From contig OY783208.1 of NCBI GenBank assembly GCA_963678705.1, forward strand, positions 8,370,001-8,434,000: 64,000 bases of DNA, written 5' to 3'. The stretch is from Panorpa germanica (lineage: Eukaryota > Arthropoda > Insecta > Mecoptera > Panorpidae). Shown here in pieces: positions 4,101-58,642 of this stretch. Both the position numbers and the translations under genes were made by a program. Positions within the stretch are counted from its first letter, which is position 1, and each line of letters starts with the position of its first letter. The notes under the pieces were generated by a model, which was not told the DNA's origin, did no database searches, and was given only the letters and a program-made list of their open reading frames with translations.

Positions 4101-5420
4101 CACAAGTCCATTGGATGTTTGACAGTTGAACTAATATGCCGATGTTCACAAATTGGTTTTGATTCCATTTTGAAAAGACACGTAATTCCAGTACGACCCA
4201 TCATGGAGACTTTTCTCGCCATGATAACTGATAAGCTCTTTGAACGGTGCGACAATACGCTCTAGTGATGGATAAATTTCAACCCGAAAGAAATAACACG
4301 TTGAATGCTAGCACTAAATAATAAATATAAAAGATTCTTTATCTTCTTTTCTACGTTTTACTTTGGTAACTAAAGAGACTAAAAAAGGAAAATTAAAATT
4401 AAATGCAAAATGTTTTTTATAAAATAATCTTTAATTTGTTTCAAATGAATGAAGTAATTAATGAAAAAGAAAAACATAATAAAAGCGTGGTGCACTTAAA
4501 ATATATAAACATTATATTCTACTTTAAATAACTATTTCACTCATATTATGCTATGTTATCCAAGTTATATATATGTTACATAATCTAAACATTAATGAAG
4601 TTCTAAAATATTCTCATAAAATTTTACAAGTTACTTCAAATTTAATAAAAATTTATTTCAATAAATTCACTTAATTTTAAATTAAAAATTTATTTAATAA
4701 ACATAAGTTACGTAGGTCTTAACTTTTGGTAATTTTTAGCCATGTAAGTACAAGTGGTGTAAGAGGGGGGTCATGAGATTGTCCGCATCCGGATCCCCAG
4801 TAAGGCAGCTCTCACACTAAAACTGTCTATGCCGACTTTTTCGTTTCGCATTAAATCACTTTATCAATGAAATACGAGCACACCGTACTGCATAACTCGG
4901 ATGCTGCAAGTAGTTAGAACCAGTGTGAAAGCGCTCTTACATTTTAGCTGCGTAATGGCGGTTTGTGTTCGTTGTTCGATGAACGCACGGAGCGGATCTG
5001 ATACCGCATTTCCGTTTTGATTAGAAATGATTCAAATCAAACTGTGAAATCATATTTTAAAGTTGGTATTTTTTACATTTTTAATCAAATATATCGATCG
5101 TGCTATTCATTACAGAGACAACTCGGAATATTGAGTTTTGATAAAACGACAAAATAAATATTCGAGTTATCTAAGTATTGAATTATATAGAGGATACAAT
5201 TTTACATAAAAGTCTGCATTAACCCAAATTAAATAGTTGCACATTTGAGGGACGACCTGACAGCAAACTTTATTAATATACGAGTACGGCGCCATTTTAT
5301 AGAAACGACGGCTATTATAGTCAAGTCACACATTCTAATTTAAAAATGGAATTCAAATTTGAAACTACAAATAATTTTATCCAACGTCGCTTCGAGACGA
5401 GCTAACGCTAGTATTTTATA
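1140..5420. repeat. Segmental duplication, copy A (flank of LRR-1)
   Basis: Long blocks here recur with modest divergence downstream. About 1140-1500 matches 8630-9010, 1600-1980 matches 12225-12560, and 2290-5190 matches 12560-15200 apart from the SINE at 2756-3334, which is only in this copy. The blocks keep order and orientation and abut an LRR gene, so the LRR gene and its 5' flank were duplicated as one unit. No open reading frame within it looks like a conserved protein; short frames shared by both copies are by-products of the duplication. Confidence 0.75.
2756..3334 (-). mobile_element. tRNA-derived SINE with 14-bp target duplication
   Basis: An insertion of about 580 bp present in copy A and absent at the matching site in copy B (near 12990). 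It is flanked by a perfect 14-bp direct repeat (tatttgttaatttt at 2742-2755 and 3335-3348). On the minus strand the head carries a pol III B box (ggttcgattcc, complement of 3270-3280) and a plausible A box around 3309-3323, spaced as in a tRNA. The other end is a run of T on the plus strand, that is a poly-A tail on the minus strand. Head, tail and target duplication together identify a SINE. The empty site in the paralogous copy is direct evidence of insertion. Confidence 0.8.
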
Positions 5421-5668: not shown

Positions 5669-8550
5669 TCATTCAATTTCCTCATAATGATTCTCTTCGG
5701 ACTCGGTGTCCTCTTGTTCGAGATGTTGGGGCCCTAAAACATTGAAAAAACACATCAACTTAGAATAGTGTATTTTCTTTGTATTTACATTTTAACTATT
5801 CTTCGAAGCTTTAGGTAACAATGTTACACAATGTACTTATAAAAGCAACTAATTGACTTTTTAATAATTAGGTTCACTTCACGTTGGGTGTTCTCCAAGT
5901 ACGTACCTGGAATATCGGGCAGGACCGTTAAGTAAATAGGTTGTGGTAGTACTTCGACATAACGAGGATGAAACCTGGGATAATCATAAATGTGAGGTCT
6001 TCCCACGGAGTCGTAAATTGGAAAGATAGGATAGTGATAAAATGAACTGGATCTGCCGTCACCATCAGCCCTACGTCATCATAAAGTTCATTTAACATAA
6101 CTGCATCGTTAACATTTCGATTCGGGTTCGTCCTTTTTCGTTGTTTATATACAAATAAAATGGCGCCAATTACTGAAAAGGAACAGGTTTTCTATGTAAA
6201 TATTAATATTATGAGTTAGGATCACTTAGCTATGTTTTAATTATGTTTTGTACTCAATAAATTTGAAATTTATTTTACTCTGAATTAAGGTTGTGTGCTA
6301 CCCTAAATTGTTAGGAGGGTTGTCTATTCTACAACTAAGATAAATAGGATTGTAATTCTAACCTGCAAATACGGCAGCCAGTGCAGCGGAAGTAGCAACT
6401 ATCCATATGGTGGTCCCATTTCCGTTCATGCTTTCATTACGATTGATTTTGACGACAACTGTTTGCTGTGGTTCAATATTTAGAAATTCTATGTGACGCA
6501 ACTCATAATTTTGAATTTGCTTTACTGAGCCGGCATTCAAGAAATTCCTGCTTATATCAATTTCGTTCAAATCTGGTTGCGTTTCTTGTAAAGATTTGTT
6601 GCTATGTGTCAAATTGTAAGATGTAAACTGATTAGAAGATAAATCTACTATTCGCAGCTTCCCTCGAGTTTTGGAGCCACAAAATTTATCCAATGCTACC
6701 ACATAAAGTTCATTTTCAGATAAAAACAATTTTGTTAAGTTCAAGGGAATACATAGAGAACAATTTTTAAGTTTGTTGTTTTTCAATGACAATTCTTCAA
6801 GGTTAATCAAATGTTGAAACGAGTCGTCCAGGTGAGTCAACTTGTTGTCTTGTAAATTTATCAGGATGATGTTCCTTTGAACTGCAGCTGGTAATTTGAT
6901 AGAGTCTATTTGATTGTGTTGTAAGTAGACATGTGTCAGATGGACTAAGTTATCCGGTAAATGAAACTCTTTTAGCAAATTATATCCAAAGCTTATCAAT
7001 TCTAATTTAGGTGTGTCGTTAAATAAACTAACAGGTAAACTCGTTATAAAGTTGTGATGGAACGAAATGTAAGTCAATTCAGTCAAATTGTTTAAAAGAA
7101 ACGGATCAAGGGATGTGATATTGTTATGAGATAAACTTAATTGCTTTAAACTCGTCAACCCTTTGAAATGATTTGGCGTTATCGTCTTTAAATTGTTGTT
7201 CTCTAAAGTCAACAGTTCCAACTTTTGAAGGTCTCTAAAAGTGTCTGATTCAATATCTGCCAGCTGATTGTTATACAAGTACAATTTAGTTAGGTCCGAA
7301 CAACAAGCGAAGGTGCCCGACTTTATGGAACGTATTTTGTTATTATGCACCCCAATATAAATCAGCTCTTTCAAGTTTTTAAAATTATTGCTATTTAATT
7401 CTGTAATTTCGTTATCTGATAAATCCAAATCAGTTAAATTGCCCGGTAAATACAAAGGAAAACTTTTAATTTTGTTTTTGCTTAATGACAATTCTTGAAG
7501 GTTAATTAAATGTTGAAACGATTCGTTAAGGTGAGTCAAGTTGTTGTCGCTTAAATATAATACCTTTATGTTTCTTTGATTTGTAGCTGATAATTCTATA
7601 GATTCAATTTGATTATTTTGTAACAAAACACTTGTCAACCTTTCTAATTTATGAGGTAAATGCAATTCTTTTATTAAATTAAATCCTAAGTATAAATTTT
7701 CTAATTTAGGCGTGTTCACAAAATAATCTTTATCTACTCTCGTTATTAAGTTATGATCCAACCTGATGTCAATCAGGTCAGGCAACTGCATTAAAGTGTC
7801 CTCTCCAAGAAATGTGATCTTGTTATATGATAAATCTAATCCCTTTAAATTCGGCAATTGTTGCACTGGTATTGTCGTTAAATTGTTATGACTTAAGGAT
7901 AATACTTCCAACTTGGACAGGTGTATAAAAGCACCTGGTTCAATATTAGTAATCTAATTTTTATACAAATTTAATGTAATTAGACTGAGACAATCAGCAA
8001 ACGCACTGGATTTTACTGCACGGATTTTATTCCCACTTAAGTCAATAAATTTAAGGTTCTCTAAGTTTATAAAAGTGTCCTCACCTAATTCTGTGATATC
8101 ATTATGAGATACATTCAGATATGTTAACAATAATAAGTTAGTCAGATGTATTTTCTTAATTTCATTTTTTGCGATGTTTAACGACGTCAAACGATTTAAA
8201 TTATGGAACACTTTAGGGCCGATGTCTTCAATGCCAACTCCATTTAGTGATATGCTTGTTAATTTGTTCAATCCAGTGAAGGCGTTGTCCTCAATGGTGG
8301 TTATTCTACCAGTGAGCTCCAACCTTTCCAGGCTTGTGAAGTTCTTAAAAGCTCCGGTGTTTATTCTGTCAACGTTTACATTAGACACGTCAATGTCTGT
8401 TACAATCCATGGGTCTTCAACATTCCAATCGATTGGAATAGATTTTAATTTGTTTGCGTCATCCCAAAACAGTAATGGTGCACGATAGCTGGTCCGAACA
8501 TAAACAATTGCAAGAAATGCAATAAGCAGACATATCCTTAAACCATACAT
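5669..8550 (-). pseudogene. LRR-2: transmembrane leucine-rich-repeat gene, nearly intact
   Basis: Three exons: 8550-6363, 6172-5907 and 5733-5669, with GT-AG introns. The product would have a signal peptide (MYGLRICLLIAFLAIVYV), an N-terminal cap, about 20 LRRs of 22-24 residues (LTSLNIAKNEIKKIHL type), and a membrane helix encoded across the first intron (IWIVATSAALAAVFA then VIGAILFVY). It ends with a basic then Tyr/Pro-rich cytoplasmic tail (IYDYPRF) and an acidic end (HYEEIE). Two lesions are visible: an in-frame TAG at 7954-7956, after which 517 codons stay open in the same frame, and a frameshift in exon 2 between about 6075 and 6006. Either this is a young pseudogene, or the TAG is polymorphic or read through. 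The architecture resembles insect surface LRR receptors; the ligand is unknown and I assign no symbol. Confidence 0.8.
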
Positions 8551-8629
8551 CTTGATTTAAATACCTAAAACTAAAAACTATTCTATAAAGTGAACTGTTA
8601 TTCTTCATCAACACACTTTTAATCACTCT

Positions 8630-15290: not shown

Positions 15291-15661
15291 CGATATGTCT
15301 ATTGGGTTTTTTATTTTTTTTAGTGTTTATTATAATAATAGTTTTTAGTGTTAAAGTCAGTAAAATAATAAGTAATCGATTTAATTTATTTTTGTTTATT
15401 ATAATAATAATATCAAAACTTTATGTGTTGCACGTGACAGCTGTAAGAAGTAACTCAAGTTTGACTAGCTCTTTTATACGTTTCTTTTACACTGTGTTGT
15501 CTAAACGAGATTGCAATGCATAGATTGAAAAGAGAGCAGCATTCGAACGCGGCGTCGAGGGACAGATTGCTTTTTTAGAACGTTTTATCCCTTAATAAAT
15601 AAAGGGATAAAAATAACTATTTTAATAGGTAATTTCTTCCATAATATTGCCACATACTAAC

Positions 15662-15994
15662 TGTTGTAATTATAGTAAATAATTATTTTTGTATTCACCG
15701 CTAATTATAAATATATGTACTGTCATAGTAAAGTAAGATATAAATGTAGATACCACCGTAGTACTAGTGCAAGGAACACATGAGCCATCTGCGTTTGGTA
15801 ACTCTAACTAAAAGTACCGAGAGTGCTTCGTAATGGCGCAGGAGGCAAGACAAACCTTGTGAATTCTAACGTTGTACAGAAAGGACGCTCATTGTAAACC
15901 AGTGCTAATACTACTTACAAAATACTTTTTATTAAAAATATACACCTTATAATTATAATCTTTTATTCAAACTCTGCGAGAATAGTTCCCAACA
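15662..15994 (+). repeat. Copia 5' LTR
   Basis: Long terminal repeat of 333 bp with ends TGTTG and CAACA. It is near-identical to 20837-21148 apart from substitutions and an extra segment of about 20 bp near 15828-15849 that is absent in the 3' copy. Preceded by target duplication ctaac. Confidence 0.92.
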
Positions 15995-16008
15995 GGTTAT
16001 GGGCCCAG
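15995..16008 (+). promoter_or_regulatory. Copia primer-binding site (initiator Met tRNA type)
   Basis: The sequence ggttatgggcccag starts directly after the 5' LTR. This is the site used by copia-group elements to prime on an internal fragment of initiator tRNA-Met. Confidence 0.8.
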
Positions 16009-16104
16009 ATTACGACCCTCTGCAGCATTGATTAAAAGATATATTACAAGATATCAGGATTTTGAGAAAAAAGTGAGGCAGCCATCTTGAAACAAGCGAA
16101 GATG

Positions 16105-16620
16105 ATATTAATAACTCCACATGTGCTTGTGAGACTACTTAGACATTTATATTGTGTTTATGGTGAAGGAAAAGTGATATTAATAAGTTCAGCGAAACTA
16201 TTTAGAAATTAATATACTTTCTGGGCTGAAAACGGTAACATTAATAAGTCCACATGTGCTGGTGAGACTACTTAGACATTAATGAACAGATTGTGCTCGA
16301 ACATTAACATTAATAAGTCCTCGTGTGTGAGAGACTACTTAGACATTAATGAAAAGATTGTGCTCGAACATTAAAATTAATAAGTCCTCGTGTGTGAGAG
16401 ACTCCTTAGACATTAATGAAAAGATTGTGCTCGAACATTAACATTAATAAGTCCTCGTGTGTGAGAGACTACTTAGACATTAATGAACAGATTGTGCTCG
16501 AACATTAACATTAATAAGTCCTCGTGTGTGAGAGACTACTTAGACATTAATGAAAAGATTGTGCTCGAACATTAAAATTAATAAGTCCTCGTGTGTGAGA
16601 GACTACTTAGACATTAAGAT
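16105..16620 (+). repeat. 67-bp tandem repeat array in the copia leader
   Basis: Starts of the motif aataagtcc fall at 16312, 16379, 16446, 16513 and 16580, giving an exact 67-bp period. Three more diverged units lie upstream near 16110, 16182 and 16243. The array sits between the primer site and gag, in the position of the untranslated leader/packaging region. Confidence 0.85.
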
Positions 16621-16643
16621 TGTGCTCGATCAACAAGATTAAG

Positions 16644-17424
16644 ATGACCAACAGTATTAGCATCGTCAAATTTGGTGGTAAGAACTACTAGCAATGGAAA
16701 TTTCAAATGAAGTGCATATTGAAATCGAAGGACGTGTACGAGTGTACAACAGGCACCGAAGTTAAACCAGGGGTTAACGCAACAGCTGATTTGGAAAGTT
16801 AAAACCAAAAAGATGCAACGGCAATGTGCATCATAACCAGCTCAATGGAACTACAGCAAATTACACTAATTGAAAATTGTGAGTCGGCCAAGGAAATAAT
16901 GGACAAACTTAGTTCTATATATGAGATAAAATCGGAAACAAATAAAATGTTAGTTCACGAGAGGTTTCATCAATACAAAATGGTCTCTCAACGAGACGAT
17001 GGTGCAACACATTTCTAAAGTGGAAAATTTTGGTAAGCAGATACGAGAGTCAGGCGATACTCTTAGTGATACTGCAATCATGACTAAAGTATTGAGTACA
17101 CTACTATCCAAGTATCGTAACTTTAGGCAAGCATGGTTGTCAGTGGAAGATTCAAAGCAGAATCTGGCCAACTTAACTGGACGTTTGTTGGATGAGGAGG
17201 CGAATCTCACTAAATATGAGGAAGAAGAAGAAGTCGCTCTAGCAACTACTAGGACAGTACCTTCAGAAAGAAGGCAGATTAACAAGAAAATTGTGACTTG
17301 CTTCAAATGAAACCGGAAGGGTCACTAAGCGAGGGATTGCAGAACAGAAACAAACAGTAGAAGAAATAAGCAAAATGTTTCATGCTTTAAATGTAATAAG
17401 AAGAGCCATTACGCCCGAGATTGT
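16644..17424 (+). pseudogene. Copia gag with two zinc knuckles, broken
   Basis: Starts at an ATG at 16644. An N-terminal gag motif FGGKNY is followed by an in-frame TAG and then QWKFQMK; a second stop (TAA) follows near 16800, and a frameshift near 16995 moves the frame to that of pol. The body has the usual UBN2-type gag character (AKEIMDKLSSIYEIKSETNK). Two CCHC knuckles were present. The first, near 17299-17336, is destroyed by TGA and TAA codons; the second is intact at 17383-17424 (CFKCNKKSHYARDC). Gag would form the particle and bind element RNA; this copy cannot make a full-length product. Confidence 0.85.
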
Positions 17425-19062
17425 AGAAAGATAACGAACCAATACGAAGAGGAGTCACATCATAGTAATCACGGCGCCTTCAACGCCGAAATATGCAACC
17501 AGACAATCAGCAAAGAAGACTGGATTCTAGATAGCGGGGCTTCAACCCACATAACATACAAACGTGAATTCTTTGATACGTTTAGTGACTGTAAGGGGCT
17601 CACCGTCAAACTAGGCAACAATGAAGAGGTACCTGTAGAAGGCATCGGCACTGTAAAGATTAAGAAATTAATTAAAAACAGAAGTGTGGATGGATTAATT
17701 ACGAAAGTCTGGTATATACCCAAGCTGAGGAAGAACTTATTCTTCCAAGGTGTGATAACTAAAAAAGGGATGAAAATAGTAAAGCAGAACGAGACACCGG
17801 AAATATACGACCGTGGAATGTTAGTAGCCAGTGCAATCCGAGAATCAAGCAACTTGTATAAGCTACAAATCGAAACTGTAATTACCATGGAAGCACATAC
17901 TACAGTAAGGTCAAATCTTCAAGTTTGGCACGAAAGACTGGGGCATCTGAATGTTAAGACTCTTTGCGAAATGGTTACGAAAGGGTTAGTGGAAGAAGTG
18001 GATATTGAGAACACCAACGAATTCTTCTGTGAAGGCTGTCAGCAAGGAAAGCAACAGAAGTTGAAATTCAAGAAACACACCAAAACAATGAGAAGACCCG
18101 GTGAAATCATACACAGTGATGTATGCGGCCCAATGTCTGAACCATCTGTAAGTGGTTGTAGGTACTATGTACTATTCAAAGATGACCATACTGGTTTTAG
18201 AATGGTTTGGTTTATTAAACACAAAACAGACGTCTTAGCGTGCTTTCGAAAATACGTAAAGATATGCGAAAATAAATTTGGCTACAGACCGCAAATTCTG
18301 AGAGTTGACAACGGGAGAGAATACTGCAACAGTGAGTTTCAAAGTTACCTTTCAAGCAAAGGCATTCTAATGGAAACTACGGCACCATATACTACAGAAC
18401 AGAACGGGAGATCTGAACGTGATAACAGAACGACTATGGAAAGTGCACGATCAATGTTCTACACAAGCAAGAAACCAATGTACCTGTGGGCGGAGGCTGT
18501 AAATACAGCAGTATACATACTTAATAGAACGGTAACAAGACAGATTACAGATTCAACACCATATGAAGCCTGGATGAAAAAGAAGCCGAACTTGAGCCAT
18601 AGAAAAACTTTTGGTTGTGACGCATTCATGCATATTCCAGATGCACTTAGAACGAAGCTGGAAAGTAAAAGCAAGAAATTAATATTCGTGGGTTATGAAA
18701 AGGAATCGACAAACTACAGACTGTTCGACCCAACCACTAAGAAAATCAAAGTATCCAGAAATGTAACATTTAACGAAAGTAATAATTTAGACAGAGAAAA
18801 CCCAACCCAGATGTCAGAGATAGCAATCGAAAAAGAAAAAGGGGAAATCAACAATCAAGAAGAAGTGATTGAAAACGAGACCACAGAATTAAGAAATGAA
18901 ACTGAAGTCGACCAGATAAATCGACCGAGACGTAATACAAGAAAACCTATACGTTTCACCGAAGCCAACATTGTTGAAGCGGGAATACCAAATTCATATG
19001 AAGAGGCGTTAAAGAGTCAAAATGGGACAGAATGGCAAGAGGCCATAAACGAAGAACTATTG
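17425..19062 (+). CDS. Copia pol: protease and integrase, fused in frame to Trio
   Basis: One uninterrupted frame follows the second zinc knuckle. The protease has DWILDSGASTHIT at about 17518, the aspartic catalytic motif of copia elements. GAG_pre-integrase follows (LQVWHERLGHLNVKTL). The zinc-binding HHCC region leads to the integrase core (IIHSDVCGPMSEPSVSG, then DNGREYCNSEFQ, then TEQNGRSERDNRT), which shows the DDE residues. The integrase C-terminus leads to SYEEALKSQNGTEWQEAI, where copia RT normally begins. RT does not follow: the frame passes into Trio spectrin-repeat sequence with no stop until 19432. The protease-integrase part looks competent; polymerase activity would have to come from another element. 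Confidence 0.88.
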
Positions 19063-20536
19063 CAAGAAGATGTTAAACAAGTATTAGATTGGCTTGAAAA
19101 TCACGGTGAAGTTTTTATTAAGAATAATACAGACATTGGCAGAAATATACAGGAGGCAAAAGTGTTTCAAAAGTCACATAAACATTTTGAAAATATTGCT
19201 CAGAACACATACACGAAAGCTGAGAGATTGCTAACAACAGTTGAAGAACTAACACAGACCGGCGAGTGCAACGTACAGGAGATTCACTTTGTAGCTCAGG
19301 AACTACAAGCACGCGTGACGTCTTTTGCAGCCAAAGTTGAACAACGAAAAATTAGACTAGACCTAGCTCAAGCTTTCTACACCCACGAAAAAGAACTGAG
19401 TACGTGGTTAAACGAGCTGCGTGGTAAGCTTTGAGAAGATGTCGATGTTCCTCTTATTGGTGGCGAAACGCTGGAAGGGACTGAAAGGTTGCTGGAGCAG
19501 TGGACTCAACATAGAAAGTCCTCTTTGGACGCTTGTGCAAATACCATATCACAAGGAGAGGAGCTTCTTCAAGAAATAAGGTCTGTGGGGAATATGGACT
19601 CTACGGGCTCGATCTCAACCGTAGAAGGAGCTGTGGAGCGACTTGCTAAACAGCGTGGAGAACTTGAGGAATTGTGGGACACAAGAAAAATGCGACTTGA
19701 TTTATGTTTAAGGCTACAACTATTCGAACGAGATGCACTGGATGTATGTTTCCAGCTAGATATGTGGACAGAAGAACTGCAACACAGCGAGTTATCTCGC
19801 GATGTACAAAAAGCGAACGAATTTCTCCTACACAATGAAAGGGTCAGTCAAATGCAAAACACGACGTTCCAGGTTTTGCAACAGCCCAGTAAACATTTTG
19901 GAGTAAATTCTACTTAATTTCTATTACATATCATGAATTTTTTGTCTGGAACGTGTTCGTTTTCTATTCAGTCGTTCATAGGAAAGGTCCTTTTTATGAG
20001 CTACAGACATTGCAACGACGGTTCACTGCTGAATTAAAAGCGGAGTAGGTTTATGATTTATGACCGGATAATAAAAATATACCCATGTGGGAAAGAAACA
20101 GAAATACTTAATGAATGATGTTGGAAAAAGAAAGAATATTATTATGAAAAACTAACACAAAATCTGTGACAGGTAGAGAACTTGTAAAGCGTTAGAATAG
20201 AATTGTACGAGTGACTCGAACTTCACCAAATAGGACACTTCACCAAATTGTTTACTGGGAGGGCCAAGAACTTACGCGGGTTATTGAATCTCAGGAGTTT
20301 GTGTCATTGCGGATGCACACACTATGGTACAGGCGCTACTAGAACTTCTCCATGAACGCGAAATGAATGTAGTAAATGTAGCCAAGATAAAGCGTGTTAA
20401 ATTAGAGCAATATATACAAATAAGTCAGGTTCAAAAGGATGCCGAGAAAATAATAAGGATCAGAAATAGAAAAGCTGTGTTACTAACAAGTTCCACAGTA
20501 CCCAACAGTTTGCAAGATGCAGAACAACTTAAAGAA
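19063..20536 (+). pseudogene. trio: Captured fragment of Trio (spectrin repeats) inside the copia element
   Basis: Trio/Kalirin is a Rho-GEF with a row of spectrin repeats. The frame here reads EDVKQVLDWLENHGEVF, IAQNTYTKAERLL, ELTQTGEC, KVEQRKIRLDLAQAFYTHEK, then after a TGA at 19432-19434 and still in frame ERLLEQWTQHRKSSLD, GELEELWDTRKMRLDL, FERDALDV. It resumes after a 377-bp interruption (19885-20261) with GQELTRVIES, a one-base frameshift near 20290, then MVQALLELLHERE, KRVKLEQYIQIS and NSLQDAEQL. The first 270 codons or so run without an intron, as expected for a cDNA. Copia sequence lies on both sides, so the fragment sits inside the element. Identification rests on my recall of Trio/Kalirin spectrin repeats. 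The GEF domains are not included. Confidence 0.85.
19885..20261 (+). other. 377-bp noncoding interruption of the Trio fragment
   Basis: Trio coding stops at VLQQ (19884) and resumes at GQEL (20262). The left edge is cagcccagtaaac and the right edge ctgggagggcc, so there is no clean GT-AG pair at the edges, although GTAAAC occurs 4 bases in and AG precedes the right exon. It could be a retained and mutated intron or a separate insertion. A short direct repeat (acttcaccaaat) lies near its right end. Confidence 0.5.
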
Positions 20537-20770
20537 GGTGACACAAATTATGGAATGTATACGGAAGATAACTCTGATGCTGACTACGCAAATGACATAG
20601 ACACAAGAAATGTCTTCACGTTATGCAACGGAGCTAAAACGCGGAACAGCAAACGTCAAGCATCAGTAGGACCTTCAAGTATTGAAATGAACAGAAGTGT
20701 TAAATGTGAAGGACGATTAAATATTGACAATCAAAGTGCCTTTAAACTTATAATAATATCAGGGATTTAA
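20537..20770 (+). pseudogene. Copia RNase H remnant
   Basis: Immediately after the Trio sequence, copia-type RNase H resumes: DADYANDIDTRN, VFTLCNGAKTRNSKRQASVG, PSSIE. The catalytic Asp region (SDADYA) is recognisable, but part of the following loop is missing and the frame degenerates before a stop at 20768-20770. It marks the right border of the replaced segment. Confidence 0.8.
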
Positions 20771-20836
20771 TATGTGTCAAAGATTGTTTAGGTTTAAGGA
20801 CTTTTGTATTTATAATAAGCTGTGAATATGGGGGCG

Positions 20837-21148
20837 TGTTGTAATTATAGTAAATAATTATTTTTGTATTCACCGCTAATTATAAATATATGTACTGTTA
20901 TAGTAAAGTAAGATACCAATGTAGATACCACCGTAGTATTAGTGTAAGAAACACATGAGCCATCTGTGATTGGTAACTCTAACTAAAAGTACCGAGAGGC
21001 AAGACAAACCTTGTGAATTCTGACGTTATACAGAAAGGACGCTCATTGTAAACCAGTGCTAATACTACTTACAAAATACTTTTTATTAAAAATATACATC
21101 TTATAATTATAATCTTTTATTCAAACTCTGCGAGAATAGTTCCCAACA
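20837..21148 (+). repeat. Copia 3' LTR
   Basis: Matches the 5' LTR. It is preceded by a purine-rich tract (gaatatgggggcg, 20824-20836) that would prime plus-strand synthesis, and followed by target duplication ctaac (21149-21153). Confidence 0.92.
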
Positions 21149-21153
21149 CTAAC

Positions 21154-22301: not shown

Positions 22302-24581
22302 TCATTCAATTTCCTCGTAGTGATTCTCTTCAGGCTCGTCGTGCTGCTGTTGCAATTGTTGGGACTCTGAAACATTCGAAAAACAAATCAACTTATAATA
22401 GTGAACATACCTAATTAAAACTACCTTATTTTCGTTGTACTTACACTTTTTAATTATTGTTTAATTGTTGTATTTGAAGCTTTAGGTAACAATGTTACAC
22501 AATGTGTTTGTAAAAGTAACCAATTCACTTTTCAACAATTAAGTTCAATTCACGTTGGACATTCTCTAATTACGTACCTGGAATATCAGGCAGGACCGCT
22601 AAATAGACTGACTGTGGTTACTTCGTCATAACGAGGACGGAACCTCGGGTAATGATATATTGGAGGATTTGCCACGGTGTCGTAAACTGGAAACGTTGGG
22701 TAGTGGTAAAATGGAGGGCGTCTGACGTCATCATAAAGTTCATTTAACATAACTGCATCGTTGACATTTCGATTAGGGTTCGTTCTTGTCTGTTGTTTAT
22801 ATACAAACAAAATGGCGCCAGTTACTGAAAAGGAACAGGTTTTCTATGTAGTAATTATTAATATTATGAGTTAGGAACACTTAATTATATTTCAATTATG
22901 TTTTGTACTTAATAAATTTGAAACTCATTTTATTCTGGATGTTCAGGCAGCGTTTTATGTTCCAGGTCGGTGTTATTTGATTGAGGATGGTCTAACATTA
23001 ACCCACAGCCCACGTGGTTCCTGTGAGAACTTTTACCGAACGGAATAATGTATAAATGTGGTACTTCTGAATATTTAATAAGGAGGTACGAAGGAAGAGA
23101 AGATATGCATTAGAAAAAAAATAAATAAAATAGCACAAAATAGCTACGAGAATGTTAAGAAAAAAATAAATTACAAAATGGTGTTACATTTTAAAGTAAT
23201 TCAGGAAAACAACGTCCTGGAACATAAAACGCATGTCATCGCCACTTTATGAACTCTCTCTGAATTAACATTGTAGGCCACCGTTAATTGTTAGGAGGGT
23301 TACCTATTCTACAATTAAGATAAAAAGGATTGTAATTCTAACCTGCCAATACAGCAACAGCCAGTGCAGTCGAAGTAACCACTATCCATGTGGTGTTCTG
23401 GTTTTTGTTCGGATCACTTTTTTTAACGGGCCCCAACACCTTCGCATTTTTTATTGTTGTTTCATCTTCAAGGTTTGCTTCATTGCCATTTGTGTTCCCT
23501 CCCCGTTCATGCTCTCATTAGGACTGACTTTAATCACATCCTGTCGCTGTGATTCAATTTTTAGAAATTCTATATGACGCAGATCGGAATTTTGAATTAG
23601 CTTCAATAAGTCGGCATTCAAGAAATTAAAACTTAAATCAATATCGTTCAAATCTGGTTGCGTTTCTTGTAAAGATTTGTTGGTATGCGTCAAATTGTAA
23701 TATATAAAATGATTAGAAGATAAATCTACTTTTCGCAGCTTTCCTCGAGTCACTGGGCCTCAGAATTTATCCAGTGCTATTCCATAAAGTTTGTTTTGAG
23801 ACAAATCCAAATTTGTTAAACTGCCGGGTATGCACAGAGGATAATTTTTAATTTTGTTTTTTCTTAATGATAATTTTTCAAGATTAATTAAATGTTGAAA
23901 CGATTCGTCAAGATGAGTCAAGTTGCTGTCAGTTAAATCTAATACTTCTATGTTCATTTGAGTTATGGCTGATAATTCAATAAACTCTAAATGATTGTGT
24001 TGTAAAAAGACACGTCTTAACTTTTCTAGTTTCTTAGGTAAATTTAATTCCGTTATTAAATTAAATCCTAAGTCTAAATATTCTAATTTAGGTGTGTGTA
24101 AGAAAATGAATGGAGGTACACTCCTTATTGAGTTATAATCCAACCTGACGTCAGTCAATTCAGACAACCTAAGTAAAAGATTCCGACCAAGAAATTTGAT
24201 CTTGTTATGTAATAAGTCTAAACTAGTCAATGGAATAAAATCAACGAAACTAATACTATCTATCTCATATATCAAATTATTGGACAAATCTAATCGCTTT
24301 AAATTCTTCAACCAGTAGAACTGCTGTTGTGCAACTGTCGTTAAGTTGTTATGACTTAACAACAATACTTGCAACTTGGACAGGTGTACCAAAGCATTTC
24401 AATCAATATTAGCAATCTGATTTTTGTTCAAATTTAAAGTTATTAGACTAGGACAACCAGCGAATACCGAGGACTTTAATGCACGGATTTTATTCGCACT
24501 TAAGTCAATAGAGATCAGGTTCTTTAAGTTTATAAAAGTGTCATTACTTATTTCTGTGATATTATTATGAAATAGATGCAA
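22302..24581 (-). pseudogene. LRR-3: decayed LRR transmembrane gene
   Basis: Same exon plan as LRR-2: LRR exon ending at a donor at 23343, tail exon from 22824 down to a donor matching that of LRR-2, and a last exon 22366-22302 ending HYEEIE. LRRs are clear (LQVLLLSHNNLTTVAQQQF, LSELTDVRLDYNSI, LEYLDLGFNLITEL). Lesions include an in-frame TGA where LRR-2 has Cys (LDKF-stop, near 23758-23760), a TGA near 24396 between two LRRs, a frameshift before the membrane segment, and a 2-bp loss in the tail exon. The N-terminal half including the signal peptide is absent beyond 24581. The tail keeps FYHYPTFPVYD and IYHYPRF. Confidence 0.85.
22951..23232. repeat. 17-bp inverted repeat in the LRR-3 intron
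   Basis: gcgttttatgttccagg at 22951-22967 is the exact complement of cctggaacataaaacgc at 23216-23232. The LRR-3 intron (about 520 bp) is longer than that of LRR-2 (190 bp), and this pair bounds much of the extra length. The right arm has a counterpart in LRR-4 (27020-27070), so the left arm is the newer one. Confidence 0.6.
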
Positions 24582-24666
24582 TGATTAAATTAAAAATAAA
24601 ACAATAGATGTATTCCTAATTAATTTATTTTGTCAACTATATACAAGAGTTAAAAACCATTGAACT

Positions 24667-26275
24667 CTATTTAAAATGCACTCGCAGAAGAGGATGATAA
24701 CTTCCTTTTGGAATGTTCTGCAAAATAAATAGAAATTAAAACAATGTTAAAGATGTCACATAACCTCCAGGGGCAATGTGTTAGTTTATAAATTTTATAA
24801 ATGTTATTAAAGTTGTTAGTACAAACCTCTTTATGAATTTCAACTTCATGGAACGTTACGTCTAAAATATTCGTCCTGTTTTTTTGTTGCGCCATAACTT
24901 CGGTTATTTTCAGGAGTAAATCTGGTTCTAGTGTGTTTCCACTAAGTTCCAAATTCTGCAAAAAAAATACCAGTTATTTAGAGCAATGGGCTTGTGTCCT
25001 CATTTCTTAGTGGTCGATTTTTCAATTGATGTTAATAAATGTGAATTGGCGTGTCTATTTTATTAAATATCTAAATGTTGACGAAGATATAGCAATTAAA
25101 AGTTTGAGTTTTAGTTTTAGCGCTAGAAATAGTCGGCCATATTTATGACGTAACATGTCTGTCTAATAGCGAGAGAAAGGTATATGTTTCTATTTGTTCT
25201 CTATGCGCATGCGTCGAAAGTGACAGTTGTCAAGTCAGAGCTGTCTAGATATAATACGTGACAGTTGTTAAATATGACATTATATTGACGTAGAATAATG
25301 TAGATATGTATAAATATAAATAAACTATATATAAATATAACTATAACTAAAAATGAGTATATGTTTTCACTGAACGGTCACTGTTTTACCGACAGACGAG
25401 CTTTGTACCAATTAAGGAAATATAATTTCTTTACATATTTAATATTTATTATATCTAGACAGCTGTCACTTTCGACGCATGCGCATAGAGCGCAAATATG
25501 AAACCTTTCTCTCTCGCTCACATGTTGGACACACTTTTAATCTATAGGAAATAATTAAAATGATAGTTTTAAAACTCACCTGTAAAATGCTGGAACCCTG
25601 GATCAGCATTAGGATATCTTTGCTCTTCAAACCTTGGCACCATCTTAAGTTTACTGTCGTCAAAGTGTTACTAGTAGAGAGCCAACGCATCAACGCCGTG
25701 TAATCGGAATCTCTTTGGTCATGCCCAATTTTAATTTCTTTTAGATTTGGCATTTTCGCAATTGTTTTAAGCAAAGCTGCGCTAAAACTCATCGCTTTTC
25801 CATCAATATCCACGTTGGCGCAGCTGCGGAATATCTTCATAAGTTGAGAATTCTGGTTGTATTCTAATTCTGTTATCCTGAGACTTTGTAAGTGTCTTAG
25901 TTTCTCTAAGGAGTCCAAGGAAGGCCAGAGAGGATATATACAGCAGATTATTTTCAGGTGTCTTAAAGGTGGGAGTTCAGCTATTATATTTCGGCATGCA
26001 ATTGTCAACGCAATGTCCATGGTGAAGGAATCGAGATGCCTATCTCGGAAAAACTCTATTAAGGCGGTTATGGTCATTCCACAACAATAAAGCAGACGCA
26101 AATGTTTTAGGGTCTTCGGTAATTGGAGTAGACAACTTCCGTCTTCTTCGTTACCTGTCAAGGTCACGACCTCAAGTTGTGGGTTGTTGGCAAAGATCTC
26201 ACCAACGATGTCTTGAACGATGGTTTCAATCGTTAAAGATTTCAAAGATCTTTGCGTTGCAGCAACACATGACAA
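24667..26275 (-). CDS. RNI-type LRR protein (F-box/LRR-like), 5' end uncertain
   Basis: Three exons are supported: about 26275-25580 (donor CAG|GTGAGT), 24955-24827 and 24717-24667 (stop TAG at 24667-24669), all phase 0. The product has irregular ribonuclease-inhibitor-like LRRs: LEVVTLTGNEEDGSC, TLKHLRLLYCCGMTITAL, LRHLKIICCIYPL, LQSLRITELEYN, MPNLKEIKIGHDQRDSD, LTTVNLRWCQGLKSKDILM, NLELSGNTLEPDLLL. This repeat style is typical of F-box/LRR substrate receptors and is unlike the secreted LRR family next door. I see no signal peptide and no F-box; the first exon opens after an upstream stop, so a 5' exon is probably missing from my model. No disabling change is seen. Confidence 0.65.
25147..25530. 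mobile_element. MITE with long inverted termini in the RNI-LRR intron
   Basis: About 85 bp at 25147-25232 is repeated in inverse orientation at 25460-25530. Both contain ctatgcgcatgcgtcgaaag followed by tgacag, and a purine run gcgagagaaagg near the outer end. There is no coding content. It lies wholly within the intron between 25580 and 24955. Superfamily not determined. Confidence 0.7.
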
Positions 26276-27166
26276 AAAGAAGAGACTTGTAGTTTCATTA
26301 TTTGCTTGTCCTCTTCATCTTTTTATATATCCATCTACGGATAGGTGTTCCAGCTGGGTTTCTGGGTGGAATCACCCTCGCGAAGGTGTTTTTACGTAAT
26401 ATAATGGAATTCGAACGCTTAAAGACTTTAACTAAGGCAGAAGTTTAAAAAACTTGTTCTGTCTTGGTTTATCCCGGAGATGTCCAGCGTTTCCAGAGCG
26501 GAAGAATGAAGACCAATCGCGTTTAGAACAGAGTGTGTCATGGGAACACTCATGGAACAATGGGACACTCAATGATCAATTCTTTAAGGGAAGGACACAG
26601 CCGCAAATATTGCAGGAGCTTGTCATCTACTGTCATACATTCACTAAATCTTATCACAGTTTTTTTCGCCAATACGCATCTGTGGCTTTCTTATTCAGGA
26701 TTCCTTGTGGATTCTTTTCATAAAGACACGTGTTAGTAATTCTAGTGCGGCCATCCATGGAGACAAGCTATGGAGCTCAAATTTTGGGAACACACTCTTT
26801 GTGTGGTCCAATAATATTCTCTGCTAATGGATAAATTGCAACCCGAAAGAAAAGAGAGACAAATTAAAATTACATAATAAATGTTTTTTACAAAATAATC
26901 TTTAATTTAAAAATTTTATTAAATTTAAATTTAATCTTTAAAATATAATTTAAATAGAACTAAATAGCTGCGCGAATGCTAAGAAAAATATAAATTATAA
27001 AATTGTATTAAATTTAAAAGTTATTCACGGAAACATCGGCTTGGAACAATAAACGCATGTCATCCCCACTTGGTGAACTTTCTCTGAATTGGCATTGTAG
27101 GCCACCGTAAATTGTTAGGAAGGTAACCTATTCCACAATTAAGTTAAATTGGATTGTAATTCTAAC
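26276..27166. other. Intergenic; relic of duplicated LRR flank
   Basis: About 26730-26880 resembles 4180-4300 and 13960-14080 (shared attctagtgcggccat-like and ggataaattgcaaccc strings). The tail exons expected for LRR-4 are not found here. Nothing else recognised. Confidence 0.45.
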
Positions 27167-28654
27167 CTGCAAATACAGCAACAACCAGTGCAGCCGAAGT
27201 AATAGCTATCCACGTGGTAATCTTCTTTTCGTTTTGATCTTTTACATCTTCTTTTCGCTGCGGTTCAATTTTGAGACGTTCTATATGAGGTAGCTTGAAA
27301 TTATGAATTTGCATGCTAAGTCGGCATTCAAGAAATTCCAGCTTAAATCAACATCGTTCAAAAATGGTTGCATTGTTAGTAAAGATATGTTGTTGTTCGT
27401 AAATTTTTAAGATGTAAACCGATTAAAAGATAAGTCTACTAGATAAGTCAGAAGGTAAGCTCCCACAAAATTTATCCAACGCCATCTCATGAAGTTCATT
27501 CTGAGATAAATCTAAACGGGTTAAGGTCTACGGTATACACATAAGAAAACTTTTTATTTTGTTTTATTTTTAATGACAATGTTTGAAGGTTAATTAAATG
27601 TTGAAATAAATCGTCAAAATGAGTCAAGTTGTTGTCACTTAAATATAATTGCATTATGTTTCTCTGAGTTTCGCCTGATAATTTGATAGACTCTATTTGA
27701 TTGTGTTCTAAGACATATCCCAGCTTGACTAAATTATTACATAAATAAAATTCTTTTAATAAGTTAAATCCAAAGCTTATAAATTCTAATTTAGGCGTAA
27801 AAGCTAATGTGGTTCAATTCTGTCAAACTGCTTAAAAGAAACGGGTCAAGAGATGTGATCTTGTTATGTGACAAATCCAAGTAAATTACTTGGAAACCAT
27901 TGCCGTCAATCTTATTTATCGAATTATGTGATAAAAATAATTTCGTTAAATTCCTCAACCCTTTGAACTGATTTGCTGTTATTGTCTTTAAATAGTTACC
28001 ACGTAAGTTCAATTTCTTCAACACTTGAAGGTTTGCAAAAGTGTTTGGTTCAATATTTGCAAGCCAGTTGTTCTCCAAATTCAAATAAGCTAGCGTCGTA
28101 CATCTCACAAAAGTGCCGGACTTAATTATTTTGATTCTATTGTAACTCAAGTCAATAGAGTTCACTTCCTGTAAATTTATAAAAGTGTTTTCATTTAATT
28201 CTGTAATTTCATTTTGGAATAACCACAAGAATTTCAAAATTGGTAAATTGTAGAACCGTATTTTCTCAATTTCATTAGACGCGATGTTCAACCACTGCAA
28301 ATGATTTAAATTATGGAACACGTTTAAACCAATGTTCTTAATTTTATTTCCAGCCAGTGTTATGCGTTCTATGTTATCTAATTCATTAAAGGCATCGTCC
28401 TCTATGGCCGTAATTCTACCATGCAGCACAAGTTCCACGAGGTTCGTAAAATTTTGAAAAGCATCATCTTTTATTTTTTCCACGTTCACATTTCTCTCAT
28501 TAATCCATGCTACACTGGATGGATTTGAAATATTCAAATCATCTGGAATCGATGTGATTGCGTTAGCACCGTCCCACTGAACACCTGTATCCGCATCGTT
28601 CAACTCAGCCCCCACACTTACAACGCACAACACTAAAATTATTGAACAAAGCAT
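27167..28654 (-). pseudogene. LRR-4: LRR gene with intact N-terminal half, broken C-terminal half
   Basis: I chose the ATG at 28654 because it begins a good signal peptide (MLCSIILVLCVVSVGA); an in-frame ATG at 28738 would put 28 polar residues before it. The frame is open to 27791 with cap (SIPDDLNISNPSSVAWI) and about ten LRRs (LVELVLHGRITAIEDDAF, LKKLNLRGNYLKTITANQF). It then stops after LTELNHISFYA, where LRR-2 continues. The remaining LRRs and the start of the membrane segment are recognisable out of frame down to a splice-donor-like site at 27167, but no tail exon is seen. It may still make a secreted LRR protein of about 287 residues. Confidence 0.75.
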
Positions 28655-30696
28655 TTTGATAAAATGAAGATTTTTTATTATTGTTATAAACTCTAGTACT
28701 TTCGAGAATGAATTTGTAAATCCGTTATATGGGAACACTTAACAACAAATCAAATCACTGTCTCTATTTGATTGAACTGTAATTGCTAACACACACTGCC
28801 TTGCTTTAGTGAACCAGACCCAGTAACTAATGGCCACTGCATTTTCTAGATCGTTTTAACATAACCATTAGTGCAATGAATGCAGTTGAGTGATGCATTT
28901 TTACTTGCGGTTAAATTGATATCCTGTTTTAACCTGCGTATCCGTTAGTTGAATCCTTTAGCCTAGTATCTTTCTTTAAAGTGTTTAATTTATGCCATTG
29001 AATGCAATAACTAATCGCCACCACATTTCCTTTGATTGAACTTAATTAATATTTCCATGCGGTCCTTTTAGTCATCACTTTCGTTGCCGATTTCCGTTTT
29101 AGATGCTAATTATCAACACCGGATGGATTTCGTCAATAGGCAATAGGGAACATGCACATTTTTTTTTAATTGTTTTTTTTTTTTTATAACGCATATCACA
29201 TAAAGAACTACTCTACTTTTCTTAGCTTTTCTAGCTTAAACGACTAGCTCTGTTTGAAACTCTTAGGAAAAATTTTCAGTTCCTAATGTTTTTAAAATTT
29301 GAAAGTGAATACCTTCGCTGAAGCAAAACAAGAATTTCGGTTTCAGTCATTCAGTGATTAGCCCGGTTATTCAAGAAGAAAAAAGGGGTAAATCTCGAAA
29401 TGAGCTGAAAACTTTGGAATGTTAAAAGTTGGAAGCTGAAGTAGAAGTTTTTAGCTTATTACCTGCAATTTCGAGGTTAAATCCTTATTTTACTGGTCCA
29501 GATGTCAATTCTGTTGGCGAGTGTTCTGGAAAGACTGATAAAACTAGGAAAACACAAAAAAACTTGTAATTAAATTTTAATTTTTTTATTAATTTATACG
29601 GTGTTCATACGAATCCCAAAGGATTTTACACAACAATAGTTTTACATTTGGAAACTTAGCTATAATGTAAGAGTACAATGATTTTATTAGGTAGCCTTAA
29701 TTTAGATTTGAAACAACTTAAGAGATGCAGAGAACAGCGGATCAGAACTATGAACGGTGAAAAACAAGACGAAATGAAAAAAATCAATGTTGAAAAGTGT
29801 TACAATTAGAGTTTTTTAAAGTCTTTAAAACAATACCATTCAACGTTCCTGGATCTCACAGTTTGGAAAATATTGTTACACTGATTTTCTGCAACTCTTC
29901 ATATAGTTGTCACAAATCTAAACATCGCATCTTGATGGCGTTTGCTGAACCAAGGACTAGCAAATATTGAGCAAAACAGTCATTAAAATCCAACTTACAG
30001 AACCTAAACGCACCCAATATTTCTTAAGGCTAAATACAATGATGATGATAACTATAATTAATGCCGTTTCACATTTAGTATTACTTAATTAGTATTTGAT
30101 TAAAATTTCTGCTTTTATGTGTGGAACAACTAAACCTCAATTTCTGAAAGTGTTGCATTGAAAACAATGTTCTCAAGTAGGCCTTGACCTGTTATACCAA
30201 ACTCAAAATATTAAATAGTAAACTGCAGTTACCTTTAAAAATATAAATTATGATCCTAGAACATAAAGCTAATTAGTTATTTCCAGATCTTCTCGTGGAA
30301 CTTGTGGAAATTCCGCAATTGACTATGGTAAATTAAATGGAAGGCAGTATATGAATTGTAAAGGCTCAAAAATGCCAACATCGGATAAGCGAAATTAACT
30401 AAACTTGGTAGAAGTTGATATTGATGAGGAGGAAGAAATTGTAAAGAATATAAAGTAACGCAGTTGTATTGCTGCATTGGGTAAGGTTATTTACTTATCG
30501 TATAATAGGTTTTGATATTTACTTATTTTTTCTTATGTTTATCTAATCATTTAATTTTACATTTTATTTAAGGTAGATGTAAGCATGCTCTCGCATTTCT
30601 TTGTTGGATACATCGGGAGAGCGAAGAACCATTCACTACAGATATTGTCTGTTACTGGCAAACGCCACGTTTCGCTTCTATGGGTGTCAAGCTTTA
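28655..30696. other. Intergenic, no gene recognised
   Basis: The first few hundred bases resemble the 5' flanks of LRR-1 and LRR-2 (tttcctttg.ttgaacttaatta blocks). The rest is AT-rich with no supported feature. Confidence 0.45.
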
Positions 30697-39444: not shown

Positions 39445-40826
39445 TTATAACAGAACTCTTTTATAAACTACATTGGATGTAAATGCGTAGTTATTAGATT
39501 TTTTACCTTTTGGATCAGATATTTCTATTTTAAGATTATTAGATGATTTTACTCGCGAAAGGGCTACATATAATTGACCATGTGCAAAGACTGGTTCTCT
39601 TAATAAAACGCCAACCTTTTCAAATGTTTGTCCTTGCGATTTGTTGATGGTCATAGCAAAAGCAAAACGAATAGGAAACTGAATTCTTTTGAGAGTAAAT
39701 GGAAGATTTATATCTGAAGGAGCTAAAACAATTTTTGGTATAAAAGCGCGGTTACCTGAATGACTTTCACTAATTTTTTCAGCGACTATAACTGAAGAAT
39801 GAAGTTCCTTTACTATTAGTCTCGTTCCGTTACAGAGACCATTCTTAGGACTCAAGTTTCTCAAAATCATTATTATTGCTCCGATTTTTAAATTAAGTTT
39901 AGGAGGTGGCATTCCAGCTGGCGTTAAACTATTCAAAAATTCTATAGGAAAATTATTTTGCTCAGCTTCCGAATCAGCTGAAACAGAATCATTACTAAGA
40001 TAACTAATGGTCTCGCCATTTAACATATTTCAAACTTCCTCATTTATTTCTAATGTATGTTCATTTAATGGACATAAAATAATGCGCGATTTTAGATCAA
40101 TAATGTCAATTAAATTAATATCTTCATATATTTCGTCTACTAATGACTTGTTAGCAATAAAATTTGATGGAATCTTAATCACACTTGTAACACTATCTGG
40201 AAGATCTGATACTAATCCATCGCCAATTTTAAGTAACCATGTAGTAAATTCATTTTCCTTTTCTGAAACTCTTATATTAATTGTTAAGTGTTGCACGATA
40301 AAAACAGACCATAGTCTACTATTTTGAATACAAGATGCAATTACATCTTGAACTGAACCACGTTTTACGACAGGTAGACATTGTCGAAAGTCTTCCCCAA
40401 GTAACATAATTTTATTGCCAAATGGTTTGTTATTATTCATTAGATCGCGGAGGCACATATCGATTATATCTAAAGCAAAATAAGGCGCCATTGTAATCTC
40501 ATCCCATATAATTAATTTGGCTTCTTTTAGTAATTTACCATCAACTGAATTGTGCCTTATTGATAAAGTTAAGTCGGCATTTAAAGGAACTGGTAATTTA
40601 AATAAAGAGTGTAGCATGCGACCCCATTGTAATAATGTGGCTGCAACACCAGTGCTACTGATACAGCTGTTAATCTTAAACCATGTACAACATGTAATAA
40701 AGTAGTGTACAAAAAAGTTTTACCACTACCACCTGGGCCGTCAATAAAATAACATTTTTGCGTTTCATTGTCATTATTAATACATAACATAATATTGTCG
40801 AAAACATGACGCTGTTCTAAATTCAA
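39445..40826 (-). pseudogene. Helitron 1 Pif1-type helicase domain
   Basis: Superfamily 1 helicase motifs appear in order: Walker A (GPGGSGKTFLYTTLL), Walker B (KLIIWDEITMAP), motif III (LLGEDFRQCLPVV), then [11 protein letters not shown], the motif VI region ([20 protein letters not shown]) and [19 protein letters not shown]. Helitron helicases unwind DNA during rolling-circle transposition. The coding frame is cut by a frameshift near 40600 and a single TGA at 40027-40029 inside an otherwise continuous frame. The C-terminus is complete. Confidence 0.85.
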
Positions 40827-40856
40827 TTGACTACTGTAGCTAAGGCCCTGCTCATA

Positions 40857-41697
40857 TTATGTATGCTGATTGACTGAGTAGTCATTAGTATCTTCAATAC
40901 TAACAGTTCGTTTCTCCGGTAAACCAAAATGTAAATAATTACAATTGTGAGTTATAAAAATGTCAATAATGTCATTAATGGCTAGTTGCTCTGCATTTTC
41001 TTTATCATACTTTAAATTATAATCTTCACATAAACAATCTATATGAGTATCCCACAATTTCTTAACGTCTGTAGGTTCACAGAAGATACAAATAAACGCA
41101 AAAAGTTGACGTAATTGTTTAGGCATTTTACATAAAGATGCTTCCTCTAAGCAACGGTTCCATTGAGAATCATCTTTTAATAGTCCAAGTGCTTTAGCAG
41201 TTTCAGCAAAAGTGGAATAAACAGTGCCATTAACAGTTCGCAGATCAGCATAACATGTAGCACCTCGAATATGCAATAAAACTAAACGCAAATAAAAACG
41301 TTCCCCTTCCTTGGGGCTAACACTATAGAGCCGAGCAATTATTTTAGATCCAGATCGTTTTCGCTGTGTCCAAATTTTCTTACGATTAAATACGAAATGT
41401 TCCGGAATTTCGGTGTAAAAATATTGTCTAGAATCTAACGAATGCAAATTTAATTTAAACCATGCAGTTAACGTGGTGTCAATATGGTTTAATATAGCCA
41501 ATTCTTCCTCGCCAGGTGTGAAAAGTATGCTTTGATGATTTTCCAAATGCACTGCTAAACGATAGATAGAGAGTATGTTTTAATTGCATATCGAATGCAA
41601 ATATGCGCCATATAGCTTCTGGCGGACTAACGTAAAGTGCATCCAAATAAAAAGAAACTTCGTCCCAATTTAGTTGTGTTTGTCCTTCCGTAGACAC
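40857..41697 (-). pseudogene. Helitron 1 Rep-helicase linker region
   Basis: Two overlapping frames carry the conserved stretch between Rep and helicase: QTQLNWDEVSFYLDALYVSP and EAIWRIFAFDM, then PEHFVFNRKKIWTQRKR, ARLYSVSPKEGERFYLRLVL and LRTVNGTVYSTFAETAKALG. The strings are typical of Helitron-like N/Rep polyproteins. The frame changes near 41500, so it is not translatable as one chain. Confidence 0.8.
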
Positions 41698-43133: not shown

Positions 43134-43226
43134 TCTATTGATAAAAGCTTCTTCCGGATCTAATATATAAAGTTGTGAATTTTGCGGCCGTTTTCCATCT
43201 GCCGGTCTTGCTGCTGATGTTCGATG

Positions 43227-43648
43227 TCAATAAGGTCCGCGTCCTGGAGGATAATCAATATTGGCTTCTAGCGAAGCAAATGCAAATGCGCTATTGTATT
43301 TTCTAATGTTATTCATAAAATTATTAGAGTGAGGGTGTACGCCAGACATTAATGTTTGCAGTAAAATCACGTTTGGAAAATCATTAGAAGTAGTTAAAGA
43401 TACCTTTCCTTTAGAGCAGCACATAGAAAATTTCTTATCTGATGGTCGTTCATCTTTAAAATTAAATGATTTGCAAAATTGGCATAACTGGCCATTAATC
43501 CACATGTGTGTTGCGATATATCTGCAGCTTTGAAATTTTGATAAGCCACACCTAATACAGGAGCAGCTGTTTTATTGGTGTGACAATTATGTCTTTCTTC
43601 AGTATTGATTAAAACATTTCCAGCATCTTTTATTTTTCTTCGTAACAA
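43227..43648 (-). pseudogene. Helitron 1 N-terminal Cys-rich segment
   Basis: Two overlapping frames. One contains CQFCKSFNF and MCCSKGKVSL, the zinc-binding pattern found just upstream of Rep in Helitrons, and ends with FASLEANIDYPPGRGPY, equivalent to FGANI in Helitron 2. The break between the frames near 43450 shows loss of function. Confidence 0.75.
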
Positions 43649-43780
43649 TTTTATTTTAACTCTTCTGTCCTCTTGGCGTTTATTTTCTATAGATAATTTC
43701 CTTTTATCCTTTAAAAATTTTTCTTTTAACTGTTTTTGTTTATCTAAATCAACCTCTTTAGATAGCTTTATATTATTTTT

Positions 43781-44143: not shown

Positions 44144-44232
44144 TCTTCTTTGTTTTTCGATCTTGTTTTGTTTTAAGAATGCATTTTTTTTTTTAACAAA
44201 TTCTCTATTTTCTTTCTTATTTGACCTTCATT

Positions 44233-45222: not shown

Positions 45223-45277
45223 TTTAAAATAATTATATATTTCGTGTTCACAATAACAAAGTACGAAAGATTATTAA

Positions 45278-52605: not shown

Positions 52606-53304
<699 letters not shown>

Positions 53305-55122: not shown

Positions 55123-58642
<3,520 letters not shown>

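Follow-up and report, generated by a model that had tools for sequence, protein, structure and literature searches.

We found that positions 15662-21148 of the window (the whole 64,000-nucleotide stretch of Panorpa germanica DNA analyzed here) are one copia LTR element in which spliced sequence encoding spectrin repeats of the host protein Trio stands in place of the reverse transcriptase (RT). We put a probability of about 90% on the reading that this non-autonomous copia was born by a template switch onto a co-packaged, spliced trio mRNA and back, a switch that replaced the RT. At the sequence level, this reading is built on the capture of spliced Trio (most simply a single capture), on multiplication of the LTR type, on recent copies, on the failure to detect a complete RT in the copies examined, on a near-identical RT-bearing relative in the same genome, and on recombinants between the two.

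The first-pass annotation of this DNA had described one element bounded by LTRs, a primer site, and a perfect target duplication, and all of these boundaries are in place. CTAAC (no strand assigned) lies at 15657-15661 and again, directly after the right LTR, at 21149-21153. Apart from a later insertion described below, the components between these duplications are on the plus strand. The 5' LTR of 333 bp (TGTTG...CAACA; 15662-15994) is followed by the primer binding site GGTTATGGGCCCAG (15995-16008), which we take to be the anticodon arm of the initiator tRNA-Met, as in copia, and by an untranslated leader with 67-bp tandem repeats (16107-16640), a leader that other chimeras and the RT-bearing relative have as well. 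The gag region (16649-17328) is broken in the window copy, with 4 stops among the codons aligned to copy L019; the corresponding piece of the young copy L022 matches Retrotran_gag_2 at 5.6e-33. The protease-integrase part of copia pol (17329-19062) is an open frame in which rve, gag_pre-integrs, and SH3_retrovirus score above the Pfam cut-off. It leads into the captured Trio spectrin repeats, in two parts (19063-19884 and 20260-20536), and these into a copia RNase H remnant with internal deletions (20537-20770), the polypurine tract AATATGGGGGCG (20825-20836), and a 3' LTR of 312 bp with a 21-nt deletion (20837-21148). In addition to that deletion, the two LTRs have 11 mismatches over 312 aligned positions. 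The features by which copia membership is recognized are thus present: LTRs, a 5-bp target duplication, primer site, polypurine tract, a copia-type gag, and integrase before RT (the RT side of this order being seen in the relative, L039). Having no complete RT and RNase H of its own, the element is a non-autonomous copia derivative.

Copia similarity breaks off exactly at 19059 in 50 of the 89 alignments that span 18900 (among 120 copia proteins listed; 1184 hits). In the longest alignment it restarts near 20528, and the copia stretch absent between break and restart is the RT. Copia sequence therefore lies on both sides of Trio, as had been annotated, with pol before and RNase H after, the RNase H being a remnant with internal deletions. 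The annotated in-frame fusion of integrase and spectrin repeats is borne out over 17329-19431, which is open for 701 codons and runs from a zinc knuckle through integrase into Trio; it ends at a TGA (19432-19434), beyond which the same frame is still Trio up to 19884, and the second Trio part has a 1-nt deletion relative to its counterparts in related copies. Because the spectrin models fall below the curated Pfam cut-offs in the 701-codon frame, whereas gag_pre-integrs, integrase, and SH3 exceed theirs, the identification rests on homology to Trio itself. The end of the frame matches insect Trio, the best of 51 matches being Lygus hesperus (E=1.4e-69, 68% identity). A PDB search with the 123-residue Trio part returned weak matches only (best E 0.6).

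About 1.1 kb of Trio sequence had been placed where RT should be. This holds for 19063-19884 and 20260-20536, but 19885-20259 (no strand assigned), which the annotation did not separate, is a 375-bp MITE-like element with terminal inverted repeats (CCCAGTAAAC/GTTTACTGGG), flanked by a duplicated AG (19883-19884 and 20260-20261). It has at least 32 other full-length places in the genome at 98-100% identity (40 of 1665 candidates scored), which indicates that the MITE was recently active. The other Trio-bearing copies listed in the MITE search continue uninterrupted across the insertion point. The MITE entered the window copy late and is unrelated to the Trio capture. A retained intron was considered for 19885-20259 and rejected: the stretch starts with CC, ends with GG, has inverted ends, and recurs full-length at those other places.

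The remainder of the window holds repeats and genes of other kinds. Leucine-rich-repeat genes or fragments flank the element on the minus strand (6358-8556 and 23451-28738), with LRR_8 matches in the scanned stretches 6361-7953 and 27794-28738 and the remaining stretches judged by eye. A Helitron-type remnant occupies 39445-45270 of the minus strand (Helitron_like_N, PIF1), and 45740-47800 of the plus strand looks similar by eye. LINE sequence at 52643-58497 encodes, in a single frame, an endonuclease and two stretches of RT; the long TA repeats that interrupt it are read through in frame.

If the Trio segment is of host origin, as the first-pass annotation held in proposing the capture of host RNA by an insect copia element, a separate trio locus with introns would be expected, and this locus was to be looked for. 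We found a native multi-exon trio on contig 20, separate from the chimeras. Its exons lie at 1938-2135 and 2236-2425 of L038 and at 2612-2774, 4825-5052, and from 5127 of L037. On the Zootermopsis protein, five native introns map to about residues 605, 671, 727, 786, and 866 (the one at about 605 being known from its acceptor side only), and none is present in the copies. Among the best 15 matches of the native Trio protein are those to Tenebrio (87%), Dendroctonus (87%), Gonioctena (84%), and Zootermopsis (84%). The chimera thus has the arrangement by which LTR-mediated retrocopies are recognized, host sequence that lacks its introns and is enclosed by LTRs. Seven nucleotides, ACTTAAA, are common to native trio and the RT-bearing relative at the right junction; by a simple formula with a match probability of 0.26, the chance of at least 7 shared nucleotides at one random junction is about 0.0005. 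The native-to-copy synonymous distance is 0.34-0.49 (18 copies), from which the capture is expected to be old.

Trio-bearing copies occur at other places in the genome, for which we searched the same assembly (464 Mb, 249 contigs). With the Zootermopsis Trio protein as query, at least 33 Trio-bearing places were found besides native trio, the window included (34 of 158 candidates scored), so other copies of the kind the annotation suggested seeking do exist. We fetched 28 of the other 32 places, and all 28 have copia pol before Trio and an RNase H remnant after it, several being truncated or without parts of integrase. The contiguity of copia and Trio, which had been singled out for checking, is therefore seen at the assembly level in copies at many other sites. 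The chimeras form an older group (9 fetched copies and the window copy) and a younger group (19 fetched copies) that is missing 249 nt of Trio (255 relative to native). A 12-nt Trio deletion is present in 28 of 28 fetched copies and in the window copy, and a 3-nt Trio deletion in 28 of 29 copies with the window included, the exception being L017, the most divergent copy. Together with the common right junction, the 12-nt and 3-nt deletions point to a single capture. L013 and L014, about 27 kb apart on opposite strands of G000:C6, are alike in flank and nearly identical, and probably stem from a segmental duplication in inverted orientation. The 15 bases before the LTR, though not 200, are the same in L012 and L016. 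Given these shared flanks, some copies are not independent insertions. L024 (G000:C5:8356500-8365500), a chimera of the type designated B below, lies about 9 kb before the start of the window, its Trio part being about 28 kb away from that of the window copy.

The younger copies have the marks of recent movement. Among 17 LTR pairs there are no mismatches in 8 (one of these with a 1-nt gap), one mismatch in 3, and two or three in 6. The 5-bp duplication is perfect in 15 of the 17, the polypurine tract is identical in all 17 and the primer site in 16, and the 5' flanks of the 17 all differ from one another. A single open frame of 1150-1206 codons is retained by 9 of the 19 fetched younger copies; in L022, the Kalirin-like spectrin match (0.011) is below cut-off. 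For the older group, both LTRs could be compared in seven copies, with mismatches from 6/270 to 25/307 and a 5-bp duplication in five (L009, L014, L015, L016, and L017); in L011 the duplication differs at one base, and in L010 the 5' LTR is truncated. The older-group primer site matches in L010, L011, L013, and L014, is altered in L015, is absent from L009, and is unreadable in L012, L016, and L017. No complete RT was detected in 29 copies, and RT similarity was found in six only, confined to the first 90 of 346 query residues. The younger subfamily thus moved recently, with no complete RT of its own detected.

A candidate source of RT is present in the same genome. L039, the one RT-bearing copy that was read, has full RT and RNase H, no match to Trio, and a frame break. 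Compared with the young chimera L022, it is 99.7% identical in the LTR, 100% in the leader, 99.3% in gag, and 96.6% in integrase. A search with its RT found at least 23 places at 83-100% identity, L039 included (150 of 1116 candidates scored), of which 4 have open frames of 1305-1307 codons, as judged from frame lengths. Beyond those 23, the search hit a more distantly related copia family in many places, with identity of about 50%. The RT-bearing relative occurs at G000:C1:3375204, 3381545, and 3387887, a spacing of 6341-6342 bases, as in a tandem array made by unequal exchange. The combination that marks helper-dependent elements is thus found here, namely recent insertions without RT of their own and, in the same genome, a relative that has an RT and whose ends match (one copy read). 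The annotation's proposal that the carrier is mobilized in trans is well supported by these recent copies and by the near-identical relative.

The chimeras and the RT-bearing relative have also exchanged sequence. Six chimeras, which we designate type B, have about 165 nt more of the RT start before Trio than the others (type A). In the one of the six that was scanned, this piece corresponds to RVT_2 positions 1-50 of 244. It matches 38 places, 8 of them Trio-bearing and 30 elsewhere, L039 being among the 30. That six chimeras have an RT start joined to Trio implies that chimera and relative recombine, and the type B copies are scattered in the Trio tree (shown without support values) rather than forming one branch, as would be expected if pieces were exchanged. 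Synonymous differences vary along the element: between 13 young and 6 older chimeras they are 0.27 in gag, 0.24 in integrase, and 0.13 in Trio, and between L016 and 16 others they are 0.57 in protease-integrase against 0.13 in Trio. In two stretches of its RNase H remnant, the young chimera is 74% and 89% like the relative, although LTR and gag are more than 99% alike. Read most simply, Trio together with the RNase H remnant forms a cassette that has been joined to different backbones.

We then asked how the captured sequence has evolved, counting changes by column in 26 of the 29 copies (L014, L017, and L024 excluded) in three sets: 13 young copies, 5 older copies of the younger subfamily, and 8 of the older subfamily. 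For Trio, the ratio of replacement changes to the neutral expectation is 0.75 in the 13 young (49 replacement, 26 silent; 1 stop vs 4.7 expected, Poisson 0.05), 1.02 in the 5 older copies of the younger subfamily (48 replacement, 17 silent; 5 stops vs 3.5 expected), and 0.95 in the 8 of the older subfamily (108 replacement, 46 silent; 9 stops vs 8.3 expected). In the same order, the ratios are 0.34, 0.36, and 0.39 for gag, 0.21, 0.38, and 0.58 for integrase, and 1.01, 1.28, and 0.59 for the RNase H remnant, where changes are few. We rejected strong selection on the Trio sequence, given ratios of 0.75-1.02; its amino acids drift almost freely, and it is probably mainly a passenger. The constraint on gag and integrase could reflect renewal by the relative rather than use in the chimera. 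By our own grouping, 10 indels are common to many copies and 9 of these are multiples of three: 12, 3, 6, and 249-255 nt in Trio, and in RNase H 3 nt gained and 3, 18, 15, and 63-66 nt lost, the exception being 1 nt lost close to the junction. This count excludes a 1-nt difference from the joining of two native exons as well as RNase H gaps before the junction. Only 3 of 9 private Trio indels are multiples of three (one-sided exact probability against the shared indels 0.017, post hoc). We take this as a hint, not a result, that the reading frame may count though the amino acids drift.

We propose the following course of events. During reverse transcription of copia RNA, synthesis would have switched to a spliced trio mRNA packaged along with it and then back, replacing the RT and leaving RNase H as a remnant. 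The chimera has retained the signals needed in cis (LTR, leader, primer site, and polypurine tract), and about half of the fetched younger copies still have an open Gag-protease-integrase frame; RT and RNase H would be supplied in trans by the relative. Recombination with the relative would renew the 5' half, from LTR to integrase, and Trio with the RNase H remnant would move as a cassette. Alternatively, a processed trio pseudogene made by a LINE could have landed in a copia copy, with RT deleted afterwards and the product then mobilized. This too would yield an intron-less insert, and there is a LINE in the window, but the Trio piece comes from the interior of the mRNA and no poly(A) follows it; moreover, its limits lie close to the points where copia similarity breaks off and restarts, and the right junction falls on the 7 nt common to copia and trio. 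We consider such a history quite improbable. Entry of Trio by recombination at the DNA level, or a junction that is an assembly error, is the default doubt for a single locus. We found nothing in favor of either, and the absence of introns from the copies and the at least 33 places, with their own target duplications in 15 of 17 younger copies, leave next to no room for them.

Whether the Trio part has a use is a separate matter. It could have been domesticated, such that the fusion protein has a function for either element or host and selection preserves its sequence. The frame that stays open to its end in 9 of 19 fetched younger copies, the shortage of stops in Trio of the 13 young, and the 9 of 10 widely shared indels that keep frame would fit such a role, but the Trio ratios of 0.75, 1.02, and 0.95 contrast with far lower ones in gag and integrase, stops outside the 13 young occur at the neutral rate, and the young subfamily was not stopped by the loss of 249 nt of Trio. 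Domestication is therefore unlikely. We hold somewhat more readily, if still tentatively and with more doubt than confidence, that selection acts on openness and length rather than on amino acids, the host fragment being a translated filler thanks to which an element without RT can hold its own against its helper. Openness might spare the RNA from early-stop decay, or the filler might keep it at a packageable length. Counting against this are the one shared indel that breaks the frame and the same neutral rate of stops outside the 13 youngest.

The family is of interest because a captive host sequence has multiplied and changed backbones, and because near-identical copies, the donor gene, and a probable helper are all found in one genome. 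It makes testable the rate at which host mRNA is packaged, the minimum that an RT-less element needs, and whether a captured frame matters. In the literature searched, at the level of titles and the starts of abstracts, we found no Trio capture by an LTR retrotransposon, nor any animal copia family in which host exons take the place of RT in frame and which has recent copies, its donor and a probable helper in the same genome, and visible recombinants between chimera and RT-bearing relative. LTR-mediated gene capture is a known kind of event, and the RT-replacing animal copia version with helper and recombinants was not found described.

Several known systems invite comparison. Tan et al. (2016) reportedly treated LTR-mediated retroposition in metazoans, including the CG17604_r family. 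Template switching between the RNA of an LTR element and packaged host mRNA is described in the parts of PMC5408686 consulted here, and the switch is said there and in excerpts of PMC8277862 to occur at short shared sequence, with products that can amplify as pseudo-elements; the Drosophila CG17604_r is one such amplified LTR-made family (PMC8277862, in part). Like the chimera, these are host mRNA copied between LTRs. Compared by description with CG17604_r, so far as the excerpts go, the present case differs in that RT is replaced within a still open Gag-protease-integrase frame, in the very recent subfamily copies, and in the recombinants. Elements of the BARE-2 and TRIM type depend on the enzymes of their partners, and to our knowledge neither BARE-2 nor TRIMs have an open frame made up in part of coding exons from the host. 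BARE-2 and the Veju TRIM appear, in the passages of PMC13317346 concerned, as products or users of template switching, and maize Bs1 appears there as an LTR element whose hybrid frame incorporates parts of host genes. By that partial account Bs1 is a plant element with three host genes, whereas the family here carries one gene in an insect copia, numbers at least 33 copies, and has a relative with RT. Acutely transforming, replication-defective retroviruses have acquired a gene of the cell and rely on a helper virus (PMC515179, in part). As far as that source goes, the likeness lies in the captured cell gene and in helper dependence, which is predicted here; for the chimera, whose spectrin repeats come without a catalytic domain, we suggest neither infectious spread nor a role in transformation. 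With that difference, the chimera family is an insect LTR counterpart of the helper-dependent retroviruses that carry a cell gene.
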